The notes under the pieces were generated by a model that had not been told where the DNA came from, made no database searches, and saw only the letters and a program-made list of their open reading frames with translations. From assembly GCA_919901855.1 (NCBI GenBank), contig CAKKQC010000017.1:1-20844 (forward strand): a stretch of 20,844 nucleotides of DNA. Reading direction: 5' to 3'. Positions within the stretch are counted from its first letter, which is position 1. Every line of letters starts with the position of its first letter. Position numbers and translations under genes: made by a program. The DNA comes from a bacterium. Its GTDB lineage: Bacteria > Oederibacteriota > CAKKQC01. Of the stretch, positions 3,164-20,844 are shown piece by piece.

Positions 3164-3169
3164 ATTATA
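3164..3169 (-). promoter_or_regulatory. Candidate -10 element (GGTATAAT) for tRNA-Arg
   Basis: A consensus TATAAT reads on the minus strand about 50 bases before the mature tRNA. It is preceded by GG, as are two other TATAAT boxes in this window. No good TTGACA-like -35 hexamer is seen 16-18 bases upstream; a GC-rich hairpin (3180-3197) occupies that position instead. The call rests on the -10 box and its placement only. Confidence 0.45.
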
Positions 3170-3193
3170 CCTCTGGCCGGGCGCGCTCCTGCG

Positions 3194-3323: not shown

Positions 3324-4145
3324 CTACCTCGTCTTCTCCAAATATGCGTGCGCCTGCGGGTTCTGCGGCTCCAGCTTGATCGCCTGCCGCCAGGCCTCGC
3401 GCGCCGGTCCGATCCTTCCGCTCGACGCCAGCGCGGCCCCCAGCCACACGTACGTCGTGGCCCGGGGGGCAAGCGAGGCGGACTTCTTCAGCTCCTCCAC
3501 GGCGCCTTCCCGCCACCCGATCAGCCGGTAGTCGTTACCCAGCGAAAGGTGCCAGTCAGCGTTCTGGGGCTCAATCTCGATCGCGCGCCGGTGAGCCTCC
3601 ACCGCGAGCTCGAGGTTGTTCTTGAGCGCGATGTTGTCGCGGAGGACGTAGCCCAGCAGGTCCAGGGCTTCCGCATCCATCGGGTTCAGCCGGACGATCC
3701 GCTGGAGCAGCCGGGTCGCCCGCCCCGGGTCCCCCGCCACGTAGGCCTCGTTGGCCTCCACACGGGCGGCCGGCGTGTCCAGGACGTACCACCGCCCCGA
3801 CCGGTTGGCCAGCGTGATCCCCCGCGTCCCGGTCTCGGGACGCTTGCCCCCGGTGTCCCACGTCAGCTTCACGATCGCCCGCCACAGCGGCCCCGGCCCC
3901 GGCTTGTTCGTGCACTCGGCCGCCGTGAGCTTGCGCCGCACCGCCCAGGCCTCCTGCTGTTCGACGAACGCGCGCTTGCTCTCGACCGGCTTCACAGCCG
4001 GCAGGAGCAGGCGGTACTGGCGGTCGAACCTGCCCTGGATCGCGAAGTTGAAATAGTCCTGCACGAGCGCCACGGGGTCCTTGTAGCCGCACCCGGCCAG
4101 CACGGCCAGGACCGGCAGCAGTACGAGCGCGCGGGAACGGTTCAT
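3324..4145 (-). CDS. TPR lipoprotein
   Basis: A 273-residue protein with a lipoprotein signal: hydrophobic residues 6-17, then the lipobox L16-A-G-C19. After the cysteine there is a globular region of about 110 residues (aromatic-rich start, VQDYFNFAIQGRFDRQY) reminiscent of NTF2-like/DUF4878 folds, but I do not recognise it with certainty. From about residue 130 to the end there are three to four TPR-type helical pairs (for example A-I-E-I-E-P-Q-N and A-I-K-L-E-P-Q-N turns). It is probably anchored in the outer or inner membrane facing the periplasm. The ATG follows the stop of the PorV-like gene by 17 bases, with AAGGAG ten bases upstream, so it is likely the third gene of the Fn3/PorV-like unit. 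A longer open frame continues upstream but only overlaps the PorV-like gene in another frame. The partner and function are unknown; a scaffold for the neighbouring secretion genes is a guess. Confidence 0.8.
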   Translation of the reverse strand: MNRSRALVLLPVLAVLAGCGYKDPVALVQDYFNFAIQGRFDRQYRLLLPAVKPVESKRAFVEQQEAWAVRRKLTAAECTNKPGPGPLWRAIVKLTWDTGGKRPETGTRGITLANRSGRWYVLDTPAARVEANEAYVAGDPGRATRLLQRIVRLNPMDAEALDLLGYVLRDNIALKNNLELAVEAHRRAIEIEPQNADWHLSLGNDYRLIGWREGAVEELKKSASLAPRATTYVWLGAALASSGRIGPAREAWRQAIKLEPQNPQAHAYLEKTR

Positions 4146-4162
4146 GGTCAAGGGGTCTCCTT

Positions 4163-5470
4163 TCAGGGTACGGGCTGCGCCACCGCGCTCGTCTCGAAGA
4201 ACGGGCGGCCCTCGATGGCGGGCTCGACCCCGACGACGGTGGTCACGAAGAAGAAATAGGTCTTGCCGATCTTGAGGCCCCGGACCGACAGGCTGGTGCC
4301 GGTGACGGCGGAATCCCGGTTCACCTTCACGAAGTCCGCGTCCTTCGACTCGCCCATGTAGATGTTGTAGCCGGTCACCTGCGGCTCCGTCGACACGGGC
4401 CACTCGAGGTAGACCTGCCCCTCGCGCTTGCTCACCCGCGACTGCTCCTCGGCCGCGCGGTACGAGACCTCGGAGAGGTGCAGGAAGCTGGAGGAGAACG
4501 ATATCCGGTGCGTCACGCCGAGATCGCCGTAGTGCCCGAGGGCGTAGTCCACGCCGAGCGTGAACCGGCCGGACGTCATCCGGTACCCGAGGCCGAAGGT
4601 CGCGCCGGCAAGCCCGCCGGCCCCCTCTTCGCCGAACTTGTACCCGAGCCGGACGGAGACGTTCTGGACCGCCGACACCGAGATCATGTACTCGGCCCCG
4701 AGCCGGATCCGGATGAAGTTCGTCTGCACCGGGGCCAACGGGAAGATCACGTCCGCGGTCAGGAGCGGCACGTCCCATAGGCCGCGACGGCCCGCGAGGG
4801 ACGCCACGCCGCGCACGGGCGCGAGCGCGTAACCGGTGCCGAGCTTGAGCATGACGGGCATGGACGCACCGTTCATCCCGGAACCGATGTTCGAGATCGC
4901 GAGCCCGGTCGTGAGCTGCGGAATCGGGGTCCTGTAGAGCAGACCGGCGTCCGCGGCGACCGCGCTGCCGCTGGTGACGGCCAGGTCCTGACTGACCATC
5001 TTGACCGAGGCGCCCACCGAGAGCGCCGGCCGCACGGGATATCCCCAGCCCGCGGTCACGGCGGTCTGTCCCACGTTGTAGGCCCCGGTGGATACCGGCT
5101 CGCCCGAGGGGCCGATCCCCATCCCGTCGCCGGCCGCGAACAGCCGCGTGAAGCTGATCCCGGCCGTGCCCATCCGGCCCAACGGCAGTACGGCCGCCAG
5201 ATGGTCGAACCCGATGGACTGGAGCCAGAACGCGTGGAGGTAGTTGAATCCCATATCCTGGCTGCGCGCCAGCCCGCCGGGGTTGTGCTCGAGCGCGCCC
5301 ATGTCGTCGGCCAGCCCGACGAAGGCCTCCCCCATCCCGGCCGCGCGCGTGGAAGTCGCCATGATCGTGAACTCGCCCGACGCGCTGCCCGCGCCCGTGG
5401 CCCGGGCCCATCCGGCCGGCCGGAGGCAGGCGACCAGCAGGGCGCAGGCGAGCCGGCGACCGGCGCTCAC
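4163..5470 (-). CDS. PorV/PorQ-family (UPF0164-like) outer-membrane barrel with C-terminal Fn3 domain
   Basis: A 435-residue exported protein. After a signal peptide (about residues 1-24) comes the family signature STRAAGMGEAFVGLADD followed by E-H-N-P-G-G-L, typical of PorV/PorQ/UPF0164 barrels, where the loop usually reads N-P-A-G-L. Alternating hydrophobic beta-strands continue to about residue 335. An Fn3-like domain fills the last 100 residues (EPQVTGYNIY ... GKTYFFFVT). PorV in the type IX secretion system is an outer-membrane shuttle that binds cargo C-terminal domains. Here the gene starts at a GTG that overlaps the stop of the giant Fn3 gene (GTGA), so the two are translationally coupled; the product may serve that cargo. 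The 19.1-20.7 kb gene is a paralogue. The family is clear, the shuttle role is inferred. Confidence 0.82.
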   Translation of the reverse strand: MSAGRRLACALLVACLRPAGWARATGAGSASGEFTIMATSTRAAGMGEAFVGLADDMGALEHNPGGLARSQDMGFNYLHAFWLQSIGFDHLAAVLPLGRMGTAGISFTRLFAAGDGMGIGPSGEPVSTGAYNVGQTAVTAGWGYPVRPALSVGASVKMVSQDLAVTSGSAVAADAGLLYRTPIPQLTTGLAISNIGSGMNGASMPVMLKLGTGYALAPVRGVASLAGRRGLWDVPLLTADVIFPLAPVQTNFIRIRLGAEYMISVSAVQNVSVRLGYKFGEEGAGGLAGATFGLGYRMTSGRFTLGVDYALGHYGDLGVTHRISFSSSFLHLSEVSYRAAEEQSRVSKREGQVYLEWPVSTEPQVTGYNIYMGESKDADFVKVNRDSAVTGTSLSVRGLKIGKTYFFFVTTVVGVEPAIEGRPFFETSAVAQPVP

Positions 5471-8400
5471 TGCCCCACCACGAGCTTACCCCGGGTGACC
5501 TTGCCTTCGGTGCGCACGATCCAGAGGTAGATGCCCGCCGAGACCATGGTCCCGTTGTCGTTCTTCCCATCCCAGAGCCACAGCGCCCCCGTCCCCGTCG
5601 GGCTCTTGCGCACGAGCTCGCCGTTCAGCGTGTAGAGCTCGACCACCGAGCCCGCGGGGAGCCCGTCGAACCGCACCGGCGTCTTCGCGGGCTGCGCCGG
5701 GTTCGGAAACACCGCCAGCTTGAGCGCCGGCAGGGAGACGCCGACTTCGGTCGACGTGACCGTGCAATCAGAGAGCCCCAGTGGCTGGGTAGCGTGCAGC
5801 TCGATCACATAGAAATAGCTCTTCCCGGGTTGCACGCCAGAGTCGGTCCAGGTAAGAGCGCCCGGAGGCGCCGAGCCGATGACCGCCTTGCCCCCCGAAC
5901 CACCGGAGGACGAGTCCCCCCGGAGGATGTCGAAGCCGACCACGGTGCCGGTGGAAGTCCAACCCCACTGGAGTCCGACGGCAGGCGTGCCCGTCGGCCC
6001 CGTCACGGCCCACGCGCTCAATGCCTTCGTGAAGGAACAAGCTCCGTTGGTGTTGGCGGTCGCGCAGTCACAGGCTCGCGTCGAACACCCATCCTCGCTC
6101 ACCGCGATTATCTCGAAGCGATACTGGGTGGCGGGTTCCAATCCTCCCACCGTGAGGGAGAACGAAAGAGAAACCTGATCATCCCATATCGTCCCCGACG
6201 GATTCTCCAGATCGCAGGTTGATCCCTTGGTTCGGTAGACAAAGTACCGGCTGACCGGATTCGCGGTCGTCGTGCGGTTGACTGTATCTCCAGGAGGCGC
6301 GAAGTCCCAGGTCACCAGTACAGTCGTGGAGATCTGGGTGGTGGCCACGATGTTCGCGAATGCCACCGGGCAAGGCGGCAGAACGCCGAGCCATTGCGGC
6401 TGGCAGACGCTAGTCCTGGCTAGTCCGCAGTCAAGGGACAGGGTCGCACATCCGTTACGGCTGACCGCCATGATCTCGAAGCTGTAGGCCGTGTCGGGGC
6501 TGAGTCCCGTCACCGTAACCGCGAACGACAACGCGACCTGGTCGTCCCATAGCGTCGCACAAACCTGCTGAACGTAGCAGCTCGAGCCCGTCGACCGATA
6601 CACGAAGTACTTGCTGACGGGATTCCACGTGACCGCCCGGTTCATCGTGTCTCCGGGGAGCGCGAAATCCCATGAAACCCATACATCGGTCGAGTTCATT
6701 TTCGCGGCCGACATGTTCGCGGTCCCGTCGTGCGCAATCCCCCACTGGGGCGGAGCACAGGAGTAGCAGAAGTCGCCGGAGACGTTCGAACACCCGCCCT
6801 GGTCCACGGTAAGGACCTGATAACACCAGGAACCCGTGGTCGCCGCTCCGGAATTAGTGAACGTGTAGGCCGTGTTCACCCCGTCGTCATAGACCGTGCC
6901 GAAGTACGCCTGCTGAGCGCCGGATGCCGTCGACCGGAAAATCAGGTAGCGGGATACCGGCGTGTCACCCGCGGCGGGCCGTGTCCATCCCAGGGTCATC
7001 GTGTTCGGCGGCAGGCCGGACAACGCGGTCGGCCCGACCGGGGTCGGCGGCGTGCACACGCGGCACCCGGTCGTCGGCGGCGGATCGGACCATATCGTGC
7101 ATCCCGCCTGATCGATCGCCATCACCTGGAAGCAGTACTCCTGCGTCAGGTTGAGACCCGTCACCGTCATCGTGAGCGCCGCCAGCGGGCCGGCGTCGTA
7201 CACGGTGCCGGAGATAGTCTGGGCGTATCCCGCCCCGGTCGACCGGTAGACGTAGTACCGGGACAGCCCGACGCCGGGTTCGCCCGGCGTCGGCGGCGCC
7301 CAGGACACCAGCAGCGACGACGGCGCCCGCGCATTCACACCCACGGTCGTGATCAGCCCCGGGGGCGTGCACCCGTGGAACCCCGATGGCGGCCCCGCCG
7401 ACCAGGTCGTGCACCCCTGCTCGTCCACGGCCATCACCTGGTACCAGCAGTCCTGGGTGAGCGCAACACCGGTCGCCGTGAACGAGAGGTTCAGCCCGCC
7501 CGCCTCCCACGACGTGCCGGAAAGCGACTGCGCGCCGCCGGCCGCCGTTGCCCGATAGACCAGGTACCGCGAGATCGGGATCTCACCACCAGTCGAAGGC
7601 GCCCAGGAGACCAGGAGCGACGAGGGCGGCCGCGCCGCGAGCCCCAGAGTCCCCGGTGGCGGAGGCGTGACACAGGCCGTCGTGAAACAGGCCTCGGCGG
7701 AGAAGTTCGTGCAGGACGGCAGGCCGTCGTCTGCCACCTCGATGATGGCGCAGTACGTGGAGTCCACCGTGAGGCCCGTGATCGTCACCGTGAACGTCGG
7801 CCCGCCATCCGAATCCCAGACCGTTGCCGTGACCACCTTGCCCGCCAGCGTCCCCGTAGACCCCGCCCCCAGCCAGACGAAGTACTTCGACAGCGGACTG
7901 CCGCCTACCACGGGCCGCGGCCATGCGACCGTCAGGTGCCCGGTCCCCGTCGTTCCCGTCGGGGTAGCCACGACTCCCGGCGGCGTGCAGGGCGGGGTCG
8001 GGGGACAGGGGTCCGTCAGGTTCGAGGTGGCCGTCACCTCGGTGGAACACGCGCTGTCGCACAGCGCGCCGGACGCCGTCACCACATAGGCGTAAACGGT
8101 TCCCGGCGCGGCGGTCATGTCGTCGTAGTAGACCGAGACCCCGGGCATGACGTCGAGCTGGATGGCCCCACAGGCCCCGCCCGCCGGCGCCCGGCATATC
8201 TTGTAGGTTGACGCCGGCACGCCGCTCCAGGACAGCCGGACCCGGTCGCACCATCCCACGCTTGAGAGGTTGAACGGGGGCGACAGGTCGCATCCGGTCG
8301 TCACGCACTCCTCCGTCGAGGTGCTCGAGCACAGGTTCGCCGCGATCGCGACCACTTCGTAGCAGTACTGCGTCACCGGCGGGAGCGCCGTGTTGGTCCA

Positions 8401-9828
8401 TGTGTAGACCGGCGCTCCCGTGTCGAACTCCTTCCACGCCAACGTCTGCGAGCCGCCGGGCGAGAGGCTGCGGAAAACGTTGTAGTACGAGATCGGCGCA
8501 TCCCCGGCCGCCGGCTCCGTCCACGTCAGCAGGACCTGCGTCGGTCGCGGGAGCGCGGACAGGCTGAGGATGGGCCCGGGCGGACTGCACGGCGGCGCGC
8601 CACCGCCGACGTAGGTCACGCAGGCCTGGTTGGAGCAGGGGCCTTCGCACCCGCCCACGACGGCCGTCACCGTGTAGCAGTAGTTCTGCGAGAGGACCAC
8701 CGCCGTGTCGTCCCAGTAGACCGAGACCCCCGGCTGCGTCGAGAGCAGCACCCCCTTCGCCGCGCAGGACCCGGCGGAGGGGGCGCGGTAGATCCGGAAC
8801 GCGGTCGCGCCGGCGACCGGCGACCACATGATCCGGATCCCGCTCGCCCACGACGCCGCCGAGCACGACGGCGCCGTCCCGCCGCAGGTCGGGGTCGCGA
8901 AGTCCTGCTCCGGCAGGACGTCTCCCGGCGGCCCCTCGTTCCCATCCGTGTCGATCGCGGCGACCTTGTAGAAGTACGTCGTCCCGTTGTCCAGCCCCTT
9001 GTCGTTGTACGGACTGCCGACGCCGCAGACGCGGGTGATACCCGCCGGTAGCGGCACCGGCATCGGCGATGATACCGGCCCCGGCAGCGCGCTGGTCGCC
9101 CGGTAGAGGCAGTACTGGGCGACGGGGTAGGTGCCCGGGCACACGAGCGGATACTGCCAGTTGAGCGTGATCGCCGTATCGCCCGGGAATGCGGACACCG
9201 CATTCGGTGCGCACGGCGGCGTCCCGACGGTCAACCGCAGGCTGTCGATAAGTACGGACGTGCAGGCGCTGACCGACGAGAAGATGACGGCCACCTGGTC
9301 GATCTTGGAGAGGGTGAGGCCCTGGCTGGCGAGATCCCCGAGGACTGCGGGCGCGTCTACCCAGCTTCCCGCCGTCGAGAGCGTGACCAGCGGCCCGTAG
9401 GCCGTGTGGCCGTCGGTGTCCTTGACCCTCAAGCCCATGTCGACCGAGACACCCGGCTTCGGCAAGCTCCCGCTGACCACGACCTTGAGGTAGCCGGTGG
9501 ACCAGTCCTTGGGGGCGAAGGTCTGAATCGTGACCGGATGGAGGCCATCGCAAAGATTCGAGACGCAGTCCGTATTCGGGTCGAATACGAGGTCCTCCTG
9601 CAACCACACGACGCCCGACGCCGTCCCCTCCTGCCCGATCGTCGTGTCCCGGAAGAGGGTCACGCACGGACCAGTCGCGCCGCAGGTCAGGCTCCTCGCG
9701 CACGTGGTCGGGGGCGACGTCCAGGCCGTGTAGGGCGTCCCCGTGGGCTCGAACGAGTTGATGATGAGGTCCGCCCGCGCGGGTGCGCCGGCGGAGAGCA
9801 CGGTCAGGACGAGAATAGCGGTCTTCAG
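5467..9828 (-). CDS. Giant secreted cysteine-rich Fn3-repeat protein with FlgD-Ig/type IX sorting-like C-terminus
   Basis: About 1,453 residues. The N-terminal 200 residues form a beta-rich domain with paired cysteines that resembles a carbohydrate-binding sandwich (tentative). About eleven Fn3-like repeats follow, with recurring SW/TW strand B, YFVYRST strand C and YCYxVxA strand F motifs and CTPPG-type linkers. Most carry cysteines, suggesting disulfides in an oxidising location. The last 88 residues (AVFPNPAQP ... LYTLNGELV ... WDGKNDNG ... SAGIYLW ... GKLVVGQ) match FlgD-Ig / type IX sorting-like domains. No ATG, GTG or TTG lies between an in-frame stop at 9853-9855 and a GTG at 9801. Starting at 9801 would cut the signal peptide in half. 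I therefore place the start at CTG 9828 (or ATT 9831), which restores KTAILVLTVLSAGAPARA; AGGGGG stands eight bases before the ATT. The frame is certain, the start is not. It follows flgK and is coupled to the PorV-like gene. Likely a surface or secreted adhesin-like cargo. Confidence 0.82.
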   Translation of the reverse strand: MKTAILVLTVLSAGAPARADLIINSFEPTGTPYTAWTSPPTTCARSLTCGATGPCVTLFRDTTIGQEGTASGVVWLQEDLVFDPNTDCVSNLCDGLHPVTIQTFAPKDWSTGYLKVVVSGSLPKPGVSVDMGLRVKDTDGHTAYGPLVTLSTAGSWVDAPAVLGDLASQGLTLSKIDQVAVIFSSVSACTSVLIDSLRLTVGTPPCAPNAVSAFPGDTAITLNWQYPLVCPGTYPVAQYCLYRATSALPGPVSSPMPVPLPAGITRVCGVGSPYNDKGLDNGTTYFYKVAAIDTDGNEGPPGDVLPEQDFATPTCGGTAPSCSAASWASGIRIMWSPVAGATAFRIYRAPSAGSCAAKGVLLSTQPGVSVYWDDTAVVLSQNYCYTVTAVVGGCEGPCSNQACVTYVGGGAPPCSPPGPILSLSALPRPTQVLLTWTEPAAGDAPISYYNVFRSLSPGGSQTLAWKEFDTGAPVYTWTNTALPPVTQYCYEVVAIAANLCSSTSTEECVTTGCDLSPPFNLSSVGWCDRVRLSWSGVPASTYKICRAPAGGACGAIQLDVMPGVSVYYDDMTAAPGTVYAYVVTASGALCDSACSTEVTATSNLTDPCPPTPPCTPPGVVATPTGTTGTGHLTVAWPRPVVGGSPLSKYFVWLGAGSTGTLAGKVVTATVWDSDGGPTFTVTITGLTVDSTYCAIIEVADDGLPSCTNFSAEACFTTACVTPPPPGTLGLAARPPSSLLVSWAPSTGGEIPISRYLVYRATAAGGAQSLSGTSWEAGGLNLSFTATGVALTQDCWYQVMAVDEQGCTTWSAGPPSGFHGCTPPGLITTVGVNARAPSSLLVSWAPPTPGEPGVGLSRYYVYRSTGAGYAQTISGTVYDAGPLAALTMTVTGLNLTQEYCFQVMAIDQAGCTIWSDPPPTTGCRVCTPPTPVGPTALSGLPPNTMTLGWTRPAAGDTPVSRYLIFRSTASGAQQAYFGTVYDDGVNTAYTFTNSGAATTGSWCYQVLTVDQGGCSNVSGDFCYSCAPPQWGIAHDGTANMSAAKMNSTDVWVSWDFALPGDTMNRAVTWNPVSKYFVYRSTGSSCYVQQVCATLWDDQVALSFAVTVTGLSPDTAYSFEIMAVSRNGCATLSLDCGLARTSVCQPQWLGVLPPCPVAFANIVATTQISTTVLVTWDFAPPGDTVNRTTTANPVSRYFVYRTKGSTCDLENPSGTIWDDQVSLSFSLTVGGLEPATQYRFEIIAVSEDGCSTRACDCATANTNGACSFTKALSAWAVTGPTGTPAVGLQWGWTSTGTVVGFDILRGDSSSGGSGGKAVIGSAPPGALTWTDSGVQPGKSYFYVIELHATQPLGLSDCTVTSTEVGVSLPALKLAVFPNPAQPAKTPVRFDGLPAGSVVELYTLNGELVRKSPTGTGALWLWDGKNDNGTMVSAGIYLWIVRTEGKVTRGKLVVGQ

Positions 9829-9847: not shown

Positions 9848-9860
9848 GGGTATTATACCC
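9848..9860 (-). promoter_or_regulatory. Palindromic GGGTATAATACCC promoter-like element
   Basis: A perfect inverted repeat (six-base arms, one central base) contains a consensus TATAAT (9852-9857, minus strand) in the 34-base gap between the flgK stop and the start of the giant Fn3 gene. It could give that gene its own transcription start around 9845. No convincing -35 hexamer is seen within the flgK 3' end. The palindrome could also be an operator. Confidence 0.4.
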
Positions 9861-9862
9861 GT

Positions 9863-12127
9863 TCAGGAGGTCAGCACCGAAGCCGTCGAGGAGCCCGCGA
9901 ACGTCGACGCCGCCATGCGGTTGATCAGCACGTTCAGGCACTCGTCCAGGGCCGCCATGGCCCGCACGGACGCCTCGTAGGCCCGCGTATACTCCATCAG
10001 TTGCGCCTGTTCCTCGTTCACGTCCACCTTCGCGATCGCGTCCTGCTGCAACTGGAGCTGGCCCACGGCCGCCTTCGCCTGGTCGAGCATGGCGTCCGCG
10101 TTTGCCCGCGCCGCCTGCATCTGGGCGAGCAGGGTGTCGGTGAAGACGCCGAACGTGGGCTGAGCCTCGAGGTTGAACAGCATGGACAGGTTCCCCTCCG
10201 TGTCCGTGACCGTGACCGGCGAGAGCGGGTTTGCGGACGTCGCGGGGAGGGCGTTCAGGCCCTGGATCGTGAAGGACTGCGTGGCGGGGTTCCACAGCAC
10301 CTGGAAGGTGGCCCCCGCGCCCGTGAGGGCGGTGTTGATCCCCGCGAGAATCCCCGCCGGCCCGGTCAGGTCCTGGGTGGCGTCCCAGGCGTAGGTTACG
10401 GCGTTCGGCGAACCCGCGGGCGCCTGCCACTGGAACGTGACCTGTCCCTTGTTCGCGGCGACCGTCCGCCACTCCAGCGCCGCCTGCCCCACCACCGTCA
10501 GCGACGGGATCGTCCGGTCGAGTGGTCCGAATCCATTGTTCACCGCCGTGAGCGAGACCTGCCTGCCCTCGAGCCGCAGCGCCTGCGTCAGGTTCCCGAG
10601 CTCGTCGTAGACGGTCAAGGGGCCACTCCCGATGAGCGTGAGCCGTTCGCGGAAGCTGTATTCGAAGCTCGCGCGCACGGTCCCGCCCATCGCCGTGTTG
10701 ATCTTGGCCACGATCTGGTCGATCGAGTCGGCGGTAGTCCACAATATCCTCACGCCGTTGATCACGAGCGTGCCCGACGCCGTCGGGATGGTCTGGAACA
10801 CGCGGAACCCTCCCGCGACCCCGTTCGCGGTCATTGGCGGGAACGGAGGCGACGCGCCGTTGAGCGGCGAATGCCCCATGTCGTTCATGGCCCTCGTCGG
10901 ATCGACCATCCCGACTCCGGTGTTGATCGCGCCCCGGCTCTGGACCATGGCGTTCATGACGAGGTCGCGCAGGGCGCCGAGGGTGGCGGCCTGCTCCGTA
11001 TTCGTCCCGTCGCCGTTGATCCGGGAGGCCGCGAGCAGGTTCGCGTCGGCCGCGATCGCGGGATTGACCGCGATGTCGCCGGCGTCCAGCGGCGCGAGGC
11101 CGGTGCCGATGGCGAAGAACGGAAGGCCCGTTGTGGTCCCGTCCGTCGCGTAGCCACCCATATGCAGGATGTTCACCTGCGCGATCAGGGAGGACGCCAG
11201 CTCGTCGAGCTCGAGCCGCTCGTCCGCCACGACCTGGTCGCGCGCCGTCATGAGGCCCTTGAGCGCCCCACCCGGGATCTCCCCCGTGATATCCAACGCG
11301 GAGCCCCCGCCCGGCTCCCGCCATCCGATGGCGGCGTACGCCGGCTCGTGGACCATCGACAGGGGCGTCAGGACGCCCGCCTGCGCGCCACGGACGAGCG
11401 CCCGCGCATTGCCGGTCATGACCAGCACCGACCCGTCCCCGAGCCTGACGGTGTCGATCTTGATCAGCTTGGACAGGTCCGTCAGCGCCTGATCCCGGCT
11501 GTCCAGGAGCGCGTTGGCCGACCCGCCCGCCGCCTGGGCCGCCATGATCCCCTGGTTGGCCGACGCAATCCGGCCGAGCAGGCCGTTGATCTGGGTAATC
11601 GTGCTCCGCACCCGCAGGTCCTGGGTGTTGTCCAGGTCCCGCAGCGACGCATCGGCCTGGTGGAAGAGCGTGGTCATCGCCACGGCGTCCTGAAGGAGGG
11701 TCCCCCGGCTCACGGTGCCGGCGGCCAGCCCCTTCCAGTCGTCGAAGAACGTCTGGACCGCGGTCATGAGGCCCTGGCCCGGTATCGCGTTCAACTCCGG
11801 GAAGAGCACCTGCATGTCGGCCAGCGCCTGCTGGATGGCCTGCTGCTCGCCCATGACCGCGGACTCGCTCCGGATCCTGAGATCCAGGAACTCGTCCCGC
11901 ACGCGCTCGATGGAGGCCAGCCGGACGCCGCTCCCGATCTGTCCCGGCCCAAACGAGGAGTTCAGCGACGGTATGGACAGCGGCGCGAGCGCGGCCAGGA
12001 TCGGGACCTGCCGGGAGTACCCCCGCGTGGTCGCGTTGGCGATGTTGTTCGCGAGGATCTGCTGCGCGAGCGACTGGACCCGCAGGGAGGTCATCATTGT
12101 CGCGATCGAGCCGAAGGTCGAGGCCAT
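9863..12127 (-). CDS. flgK: Flagellar hook-filament junction protein FlgK (HAP1), enlarged
   Basis: A 754-residue axial protein that joins the hook to the filament. The N-terminal helix region carries the rod/hook family signature (LAQQILANNIANATTRGYSRQ, residues 20-40). The C-terminus (VDVNEEQAQLMEYTRAYEAS, then ALDECLNVLINRM, residues 701-738) is diagnostic of FlgK. It is about 200 residues longer than enterobacterial FlgK (547). The excess lies at about residues 410-660, between the usual D2/D3 region and the C-terminal helices. It contains one good flagellin-hook IN-like motif (452-508, GTLVINGVRI ... IVAKIN ... LTLIGSG) and a weaker second one (560-652). The ATG at 12127 has AAGGAG seven bases upstream. 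It follows flgN by 36 bases. No flgL follows in this window. Confidence 0.95.
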   Translation of the reverse strand: MASTFGSIATMMTSLRVQSLAQQILANNIANATTRGYSRQVPILAALAPLSIPSLNSSFGPGQIGSGVRLASIERVRDEFLDLRIRSESAVMGEQQAIQQALADMQVLFPELNAIPGQGLMTAVQTFFDDWKGLAAGTVSRGTLLQDAVAMTTLFHQADASLRDLDNTQDLRVRSTITQINGLLGRIASANQGIMAAQAAGGSANALLDSRDQALTDLSKLIKIDTVRLGDGSVLVMTGNARALVRGAQAGVLTPLSMVHEPAYAAIGWREPGGGSALDITGEIPGGALKGLMTARDQVVADERLELDELASSLIAQVNILHMGGYATDGTTTGLPFFAIGTGLAPLDAGDIAVNPAIAADANLLAASRINGDGTNTEQAATLGALRDLVMNAMVQSRGAINTGVGMVDPTRAMNDMGHSPLNGASPPFPPMTANGVAGGFRVFQTIPTASGTLVINGVRILWTTADSIDQIVAKINTAMGGTVRASFEYSFRERLTLIGSGPLTVYDELGNLTQALRLEGRQVSLTAVNNGFGPLDRTIPSLTVVGQAALEWRTVAANKGQVTFQWQAPAGSPNAVTYAWDATQDLTGPAGILAGINTALTGAGATFQVLWNPATQSFTIQGLNALPATSANPLSPVTVTDTEGNLSMLFNLEAQPTFGVFTDTLLAQMQAARANADAMLDQAKAAVGQLQLQQDAIAKVDVNEEQAQLMEYTRAYEASVRAMAALDECLNVLINRMAASTFAGSSTASVLTS

Positions 12128-19139: not shown

Positions 19140-20690
19140 TTACTGGCGAGGTATCGCGATGAAGGTCTGCTCCGGCGACGGCGGCCCCTCGACCGGCGGG
19201 GTCGACCGCGACACCGAGCGCACGTAGATGTAGTACCGCTCTCCTGCCACCACCGGCTGGGCCCCGCTCGGGCCCGGGAACTGCACCATGCGCACCGTCG
19301 TCGAGCTCAAGGGCTGGGAGTTGTACCGGACGTGTCCCGATCCCGACATCGTTGAGATGTACACGTTATACCCCGCAACGTTCTCCCCCACCGAGCCGCG
19401 CCAGGAAACCGTGATCTCGCCCTCCGCCGCCTGCTGCGTGATCTCGACGGCCCCCAGTTGGGGTGCGATCGGGGTGGCCGGGACCTCGGCCGAACGCTCC
19501 GACTCGAGGGGCGGCTGCGTGTTCGAGATCGCGGTCACCACGAAGTAGTACGTCCGGCCGTTCTCGAGGCCGATGATCCGGGCCGACGACAGCCCCACGG
19601 TGTTGATCTTGCGGTATTCGCCGCCAGGCGCGGTGGAGATGTAGATGTTGTACGCGCCCACCTGGGGCTCGGGGTTCGGCGTCCAGACGAGTTCCACCTC
19701 GCTGTCCTTGGGACTGGCCTTCAACCCGAGGGGAGACGTCGGACGGACGCCGCTGGCCGTCACGCGCCCGAAGCGGATCGCGAAGGAGGCGCGGTGGTTG
19801 TTACCGAGGTTGCCCGCATGGCCCATGTACGCGTAATCGACCTCCCAGTCGGTCGCGCGATACGAAAGCCCCGCGGAGTACCGTCCCGGCAGCGTCGAGA
19901 ATCCCGAATAGCCCAGGCGCACGCCCAGCGCTCCCTCGAAGAACCAGCCCTCCACCCCCGCGTGCAGCGTCGTCGCCGCCGGCTTCGACACGGTCGGGTC
20001 CTTGAAGTTCTCCGCGTCCAGGGCCAGGGTGATCCACCGCTCGAACTGGTACGCCGTGCCCACCCGGATCACGGAGGGGATCGTCTGCGACCCCAGCCCA
20101 CCCGGCTGGCGGATCTCGGTAGAAAGATCCTGCGCCGAGAACCCGAACCGGACCTCCTTGCCGAACCTCGGCAATGGCAACCGGTACAGGACGCCCCAAT
20201 CGAGTCCAAGGCCGTTGCCCCCGACGTCCCGCAGCACCGAGCTCGCGTTGTAGAACTTGATGTTCAGCCCGCCAAAGAACGTACGGTCCTCGGTCAACGA
20301 GGAGGCGAAGGTGGCGTAGAAGACGTCCTCCTTGAGTTTCGCGATGTCTCCGTGGAATCCGGAGAAGTCCTTCCGCTCCCAGGACAGTCCCATGATCGCA
20401 TCCGCCATGACGGGAAACGCCGCCGAGAAGAACAGGTAGGTCACGTTGCCGTCGTAGATCGCGGCGTAGGAGCCGGAGAGTTCCGCGCGGGTGAGCTGAC
20501 CCAATCCCGCCGGGTTCCACCAGACCGAGCTGTTCTCGTCGCTGACCGCCACGAACGCGCCACCCATCCCGAGCGGCCGCGCCCCGATCCCGGTCACACC
20601 GCCCTTGGTGAAGTAGGCGGCCGCCCCGATCGGCAGCAACACGAGCGCCGCCCACAACGCGACGCCGGACCGCAGGCTCCTGGTCAGCAT
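19140..20690 (-). CDS. PorV/UPF0164-like outer-membrane barrel with two C-terminal Fn3 domains
   Basis: A 516-residue exported protein when started at ATG 20690. A signal peptide (about residues 1-24, ending G-A-A-A) leads into the UPF0164/PorV signature G-A-R-P-L-G-M-G-G-A-F-V-A-V-S-D followed by W-W-N-P-A-G-L-G. Beta-strand-like segments continue to about residue 315 (of the 516), followed by two Fn3-like domains. The first (EPQVGAYNIYIST ... NGRTYYFVVTA) closely resembles the Fn3 tail of the 4.2-5.5 kb protein; the second contains V-A-G-Y-N-V-Y-I-S-T and R-Y-Y-I-Y-V-R-S-V. The open frame extends 37 codons further, but a TATAAT box (20716-20721) lies inside that extension, so the shorter start is favoured although its Shine-Dalgarno (AGGA, very close) is poor. 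It is probably an outer-membrane barrel; transport or cargo docking is an inference. Confidence 0.82.
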   Translation of the reverse strand: MLTRSLRSGVALWAALVLLPIGAAAYFTKGGVTGIGARPLGMGGAFVAVSDENSSVWWNPAGLGQLTRAELSGSYAAIYDGNVTYLFFSAAFPVMADAIMGLSWERKDFSGFHGDIAKLKEDVFYATFASSLTEDRTFFGGLNIKFYNASSVLRDVGGNGLGLDWGVLYRLPLPRFGKEVRFGFSAQDLSTEIRQPGGLGSQTIPSVIRVGTAYQFERWITLALDAENFKDPTVSKPAATTLHAGVEGWFFEGALGVRLGYSGFSTLPGRYSAGLSYRATDWEVDYAYMGHAGNLGNNHRASFAIRFGRVTASGVRPTSPLGLKASPKDSEVELVWTPNPEPQVGAYNIYISTAPGGEYRKINTVGLSSARIIGLENGRTYYFVVTAISNTQPPLESERSAEVPATPIAPQLGAVEITQQAAEGEITVSWRGSVGENVAGYNVYISTMSGSGHVRYNSQPLSSTTVRMVQFPGPSGAQPVVAGERYYIYVRSVSRSTPPVEGPPSPEQTFIAIPRQ

Positions 20691-20844
20691 GGTCCTACGA
20701 GTAGCCACCAAACGCATTATACCGGAAGGAGCGGAAAAGAAGAGACGGGAGCATGAAACCGGCGCCGCCGGAAGGCATCTGTTCACAACACCGTAACGCA
20801 ATACCGGACATACCCCGTCTTGTTCATCCCCACCTTGCCCAGCA
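20691..20844. other. Upstream edge without a recognisable gene
   Basis: The 154 bases upstream of the PorV-like gene hold its probable promoter and otherwise no coding frame that I can support. The purine-rich stretch at about 20723-20750 on the plus strand reads as pyrimidines on the transcribed minus strand. Confidence 0.4.
20716..20721 (-). promoter_or_regulatory. Candidate -10 element (GGTATAAT) of the PorV-like gene
   Basis: A consensus TATAAT on the minus strand, preceded by CCGG, lies 25 bases before the chosen ATG. It predicts a transcript start near 20709 and a leader of about 20 bases. The -35 region is pyrimidine-rich (TCTTCT-like) and does not match TTGACA. Confidence 0.45.

Follow-up and report, generated by a model that had tools for sequence, protein, structure and literature searches.

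Gene Organization of the Locus

The window, i.e., the whole stretch of 20,844 nucleotides analysed here, is contig C17 of a 4.68 Mb assembly with a completeness of 93%; we infer that this genome and the 45 genomes compared with it belong to the phylum Candidatus Goldiibacteriota (FCPU426). The unit under study comprises three genes, all of them on the minus strand. The cargo gene (positions 5467-9801), an open reading frame of translation table 11 with a GTG start, encodes a secreted Fn3 protein of 1444 aa with a C-terminal sorting domain (CTD). It is followed by the gene of a 435-aa outer-membrane barrel of the PorV/PorQ family (4163-5470); the cargo stop codon TGA (5469-5467) shares the bases GTGA with the GTG start of the barrel gene (5470), an overlap of 4 bases. 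The third gene (3324-4145), encoding a lipoprotein of 273 aa with TPR repeats and the lipobox LAGC, starts with ATG at 4145, 17 bases past the barrel stop. This layout had been described in a first-pass annotation made from the sequence alone, and gene calls and domain scans agree with it. The cargo start given there, at 9828, needs a CTG codon and may be the true one; it would give the protein a good signal peptide, LKTAILVLTVLSAGAPARA.

The unit is flanked by flgK (9863-12127, minus strand; TIGR02492, 245 bits), upstream of which the genes flgF-G-A-H-I-J are present. A further barrel of the PorV family, which has two Fn3 domains, is encoded directly upstream of flgF (19140-20801, minus strand); throughout the phylum its gene stays together with the flagellar operon.

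Cargo Protein and Its Sorting Domain

Domain scans of the cargo showed at least five Fn3 repeats, a C-terminal match to TIGR04183, the curated model of type A T9SS CTDs, and a weak FlgD_ig match. The TIGR04183 score was 28.1 bits in the genome search, above the cut-off of 23, which assigns the domain to type A by the curated model, and 22.2 bits, slightly below the cut-off, for the whole protein. The type A-like domain (5470-5712, minus strand; TIGR04183 match at 5476-5712) contains the motifs FPNP, YTLNGELV and AGIYLWIV. Its structure, predicted from the last 95 residues of the cargo and 41 CTDs of other genomes, is a seven-stranded Ig-like beta-sandwich at the extreme C-terminus (pLDDT 90).

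A Foldseek search with this model gave three matches below E 0.001, all of them CTDs of PorZ and PorU. In VIA-align comparisons the highest scores were obtained for the CTDs of PorZ (Z 12.0; 2.6 A, 89 residues), NucA from the SprA-PorV complex (Z 11.1; 1.5 A, 72 residues), PorU (Z 11.0) and mirolase (Z 10.7), beneath which lies a broad field of other Ig-like domains at Z 8-9.7. A sequence profile built from the 42 CTDs detected PorZ (4e-12) and PorU (5e-9), then FlgD (3e-5). An origin of the domain from FlgD was rejected, since T9SS CTDs outrank FlgD both in the fold search and in the sequence profile. The type B CTD model TIGR04131 and the PorP/SprF barrel had no match in the NCBIfam scan of the trio, which gave TIGR04183 and the PorV family instead. 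A structure unlike type A and type B sorting domains would have counted against the proposal of the first-pass annotation; sequence and predicted fold alike resemble type A CTDs.

PorV-Family Barrel and TPR Lipoprotein

The barrel scored 124.4 bits against NF033709, the PorV/PorQ family (cut-off 90), and 32.9 bits against NF033710, the equivalog model of PorV proper (cut-off 250); it is therefore a PorV-family member and not PorV itself. In fold searches with the predicted structure (pLDDT 84), the PorV chains of SprA complexes (8gl6_F, 6h3i_F) were the top matches, with the FadL family next, and the profile of the barrel family detected PorV at E 6e-40. The designation of the barrel as PorV-like is thereby upheld by family score, fold and profile.

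At the C-terminus of the barrel protein, an Fn3-like domain was found (4226-4423, minus strand; residues 350-415, PF00041, E 0.0012, which is under the curated cut-off). At this place several homologues carry a fused TPR domain and others an OmpA domain. Because OmpA domains located there face the periplasm, the Fn3-like tail and the TPR lipoprotein probably face it as well. Barrels of the PorV family fused to OmpA domains are encoded at L053:3388-5457, L063:4670-7048 and L141:7342-8793, one of them also with a FlgD_ig-like part. No obvious TPR lipoprotein follows any other PorV gene of the genome, as judged by eye from the start sequences.

SprA Translocon and Other Type IX Components

Of the type IX core genes named for a search by the first-pass annotation, a homologue of SprA/Sov was found on contig C23 (TIGR04189, 204.8 bits in the genome search and 264 bits for the whole protein; cut-off 200); the window genome accordingly encodes a SprA/Sov-like translocon, the absence of which would have weakened the original proposal. 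SprA homologues are present in 40 of the 45 genomes of the phylum, mostly with scores under the curated cut-off. The gene sprA is located 13 bp upstream of a gene for a 705-aa CTD protein, which in turn shares 4 bases with a PorV-family gene, and the three likely form one operon. In the relatives G006 (contig C2) and G011 (contig C76), the flagellar operon has sprA and a CTD gene upstream of it at a distance of ~8-20 kb (L256, L258).

PF14349 (SprA_N) gave no match, in a search without a control match, while TIGR04189 did match. GldL and GldM (PorL/PorM) also had no match; no control genome matched, including the Bacteroidetes and Ignavibacteria MAGs meant as positive controls for GldL, so that loss and divergence are not separable here. 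The same applies to the C25 peptidase of PorU (PF01364), for which neither the genome nor any control genome gave a match.

Pairing of Cargo and Barrel Genes in the Genome

Fifty-eight PorV-family matches were found in the genome after split hits were merged. Genes were called in the DNA around these matches, and CTDs were detected with an iterated profile seeded by the CTD of the window alone, gene position being unused. A CTD gene is located directly upstream of 46 of the 52 testable PorV-family genes, whereas of the remaining genes in these regions the profile marked 26 of 252 as CTD genes (Fisher 4e-29); the background of 10% is if anything too high, because the examined regions were chosen for PorV or CTD genes. 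In 24 of the 46 pairs the two genes overlap by 4 bases. With curated models only, 25 of the 58 PorV matches are preceded, on the same strand and at no more than 400 bp, by a CTD match; the expected number is ~0.15. For six of the 52 barrels the upstream gene is not a CTD gene, and 26 CTD genes in the examined regions lack a barrel directly behind them.

Distances among the barrels and among the CTDs of the 46 pairs are correlated (Mantel r 0.59; none of 5000 permutations reached this value, the maximum being 0.14), also after one near-identical pair is left out (r 0.56) and inside the three CTD subtypes (r 0.54, 0.67 and 0.82), which were defined by hand-written motif patterns and split the set differently in two analyses (29/8/9 and 21/13/12). 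The correlations show CTD and barrel moving as a pair; taken alone, covariation fits either recognition or duplication as a unit. The pair in the window is one ordinary example among about 46 probable surface proteins with their own barrel gene behind them. The first-pass annotation had suggested looking for other proteins with the same C-terminal domain, and the 46 paired CTD genes belong to this group; its premise that a cargo is rarely encoded with its own shuttle is not supported, the linkage being the rule for PorV-family genes here and in many further phyla.

Pairing in Other Phyla

Among other genomes, CTDs were found in 41 of 56 close upstream neighbours of barrel genes and in 28 of 450 other genes. 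The sample from other phyla consisted of 80 loci from named genomes, chosen by barrel similarity only. At a gap limit of 700 bp, a CTD was present upstream in 47 of 74 cases. Per-phylum samples are small, phyla were assigned by hand and taxon labels are those of the MAG records; with this limit, pairing was found in Elusimicrobiota (13/13), WOR-3 (4/4), Desantisbacteria (4/5), Krumholzibacteriota (3/3), Aerophobetes (2/2), Latescibacterota (2/2) and genomes labelled Caldithrix/Deferribacteres (2/2); in Goldiibacteriota it was found in 7 of 23 cases, and in Zixibacteria (0/2), Firestonebacteria (0/3) and Bacteroidota/Ignavibacteria (0/2) in none. Whether the pair is conserved in relatives had been raised as a decisive point; it is conserved in so far as such pairs of cargo and barrel are widespread, but the place beside flgK is not shared.

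Proposed Role of the Cargo-Barrel Pair

We read the cargo-barrel pair as a type IX-like unit of secretion and surface display with a dedicated shuttle, at a probability of about 0.68; judged from sequences and structural models, it probably functions as such a unit. Sec would carry the Fn3 cargo across the inner membrane. The beta-sandwich at the C-terminus of the cargo would then be recognised, inside the SprA-like translocon, by extracellular loops of the PorV-family barrel encoded by the next gene, and the barrel would depart together with the cargo. Because a PorU-type sortase was not detected, in a search without a working control, the barrel probably stays bound as the surface anchor of the cargo. 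The TPR lipoprotein may be a periplasm-facing accessory of this single pair. Gene order, protein families, predicted folds, the presence of SprA, the genome-wide pairing of one cargo with one barrel and CTD-barrel covariation are the observations from which we infer binding specificity, transport, anchoring and the role of the lipoprotein. Against a dedicated shuttle it can be said that the Ig-like fold is shared by FlgD and other proteins, and that covariation would also result if pairs duplicated as units without specificity. The lack of GldL, GldM and C25 matches, in searches in which no control genome matched, the six barrels with no CTD gene before them and the 26 CTD genes with no barrel next to them likewise count against it.

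Alternatively, the barrel may be purely an anchor or assembly partner, like PorQ or like PorP with PG1035, with transport carried out by a different, shared PorV and the pairing reflecting co-assembly at the surface, not shuttling. NF033709 spans PorV and PorQ, the trio barrel scores higher for PorQ (52.6) than for PorV (32.9), OmpA domains on other barrels suggest fixation to peptidoglycan, and PMC9143113 supports PorP-like barrels as anchors of type B cargo. CTD-barrel covariation is compatible with either role; PorV of the SprA complex, however, ranks first by both fold and profile, although no PorQ structure was among the competitors, and a barrel serving as anchor only appears unlikely.

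Flagellar Neighbourhood and the Second Barrel

The first-pass annotation suggested that the trio directly behind flgK could be a surface-display or filament-associated module. In favour of a flagellum-specific module of the flgK operon are the distance of only ~35-60 bp between flgK and the cargo start and the weak FlgD_ig match in the CTD; in the fold search, however, T9SS CTDs rank above FlgD. The trio was found behind flgK in no relative where the region after this gene is readable; instead, flgK is followed by Lnt and neighbours or by further flagellar genes. Barrel homologues were not found near flagellar genes, and in the sister genome G001, where the sequence breaks 290 bases past flgK, no barrel match was present at 1e-30. 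The gap between flgK and the cargo gene contains GGTATAAT (9852-9859, minus strand), a likely -10 box, found three times in the window against 0.01 expected; the trio thus likely has its own -10 box. Gene order in relatives and this box speak against the module, which is very unlikely, and the place of the trio behind flgK is incidental. Least probable of all is that the barrel is a transporter of hydrophobic compounds of the FadL type and the cargo an Fn3 protein that merely has an Ig-like end in common with T9SS cargo. In favour of this are the FadL family as second-best fold match and weak matches to the UPF0164/Toluene_X models, but PorV is far stronger (6e-40 vs 7e-4), and small-molecule transport leaves the pairing with CTD genes and the presence of SprA unexplained.

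The three copies of GGTATAAT in the window (3164-3171, 9852-9859 and 20716-20723) are located upstream of tRNA-Arg, the cargo gene and the flgF-linked barrel gene, respectively, and the sequence occurs just once in the remaining ~545 kb of own-genome DNA examined. TATAAT is intergenic in 13 of 17 cases in the examined DNA of this genome, though only 6% of that DNA is intergenic.

The flagellar link in the window belongs to the second barrel (19140-20801) and not to the barrel of the trio. The second barrel immediately precedes flgF in each of the 12 genomes read at this place (the window genome and G001, G006, G011, G015, G016, G020, G023, G027, G031, G037 and G039). At E 1e-40 it was found in 30 of the 45 genomes of the phylum and in none of ~244 genomes outside it. 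Orthologs, i.e., 25 matches with about 40% identity or more, picked by hand, are present in 25 of the 30 genomes that have a flagellar match and in none of the 15 that lack one (Fisher 4e-8). In an earlier survey, flagellar genes were reported in Goldbacteria and in none of the sibling clades (PMC7031533). The second barrel is possibly an undescribed outer-membrane component of the flagellum. In most relatives, the flgF-linked barrel gene is preceded by a second PorV-like gene of ~700 aa. Three such genes were scanned (L266:9939-12041, L256:15654-17795 and L261:17100-19193), two of which have a FlgD_ig-like part; in the window genome the contig ends before the corresponding place.

Comparison with Known Systems and Significance

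In Porphyromonas gingivalis, the gene of a CTD protein, porU, stands immediately before the PorV gene (porU-porV, PG0026-PG0027), the same order as here. In contrast to porU, the upstream gene in the window encodes an Fn3 protein without a C25 peptidase domain, the genome-wide C25 search being uncontrolled. The FlgD Ig-like domain shares with the CTD of the window a weak Pfam match and a related Ig-like sandwich, but T9SS CTDs stand well above it by fold, and PorZ and PorU are ahead of it by profile.

Published accounts restrict the T9SS to Bacteroidota or the FCB group (PMC12618676, PMC11285876, PMC4793230). In Bacteroidota, all type A cargo is served by one PorV (PMC12618676), the loops of which bind the CTD within SprA (PMC10994853). 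The pair described here resembles type A cargo with a shared PorV (PMC10994853, PMC5562754) in the CTD fold, the PorV-family barrel and the presence of a SprA homologue; it differs in having one barrel per cargo, where that system has a single PorV shared by all cargo of type A. Private PorP/SprF shuttles are known for type B cargo (PMC12618676), and the cited papers give private shuttles to type B cargo only (PMC12618676, PMC9143113, PMC11285876, PMC4793230). In SprB-SprF of Flavobacterium johnsoniae, a type B system of this kind (PMC12618676, PMC9143113), the cargo gene is likewise followed by its own barrel gene, with a C-terminal CTD and SprA, whereas here the CTD is type A-like, the barrel belongs to the PorV/PorQ family, tens of pairs are present per genome and the phylum lies outside Bacteroidota.

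In literature searched mostly without subscription journals, no paper was found on PorV multiplicity or T9SS in Goldiibacteriota or Elusimicrobiota, nor any describing private type A pairing. What is new is the pattern, outside Bacteroidota, of type A-like cargo with private shuttles of the PorV family, rather than the position beside flgK. As a tentative generalization, at least 12 phyla outside Bacteroidota might use SprA export in which each type A-like cargo has a private PorV-family barrel as shuttle and anchor, possibly with neither the GldLM motor nor the PorU sortase; in Goldiibacteriota, two further PorV-family barrels would be fixed in the flagellar rod/ring operon. A single genome with tens of matched CTD-barrel pairs supplies a natural data set on the rules of recognition between CTD and shuttle, and the pairing offers a route to predicting surface proteins in uncultured phyla.
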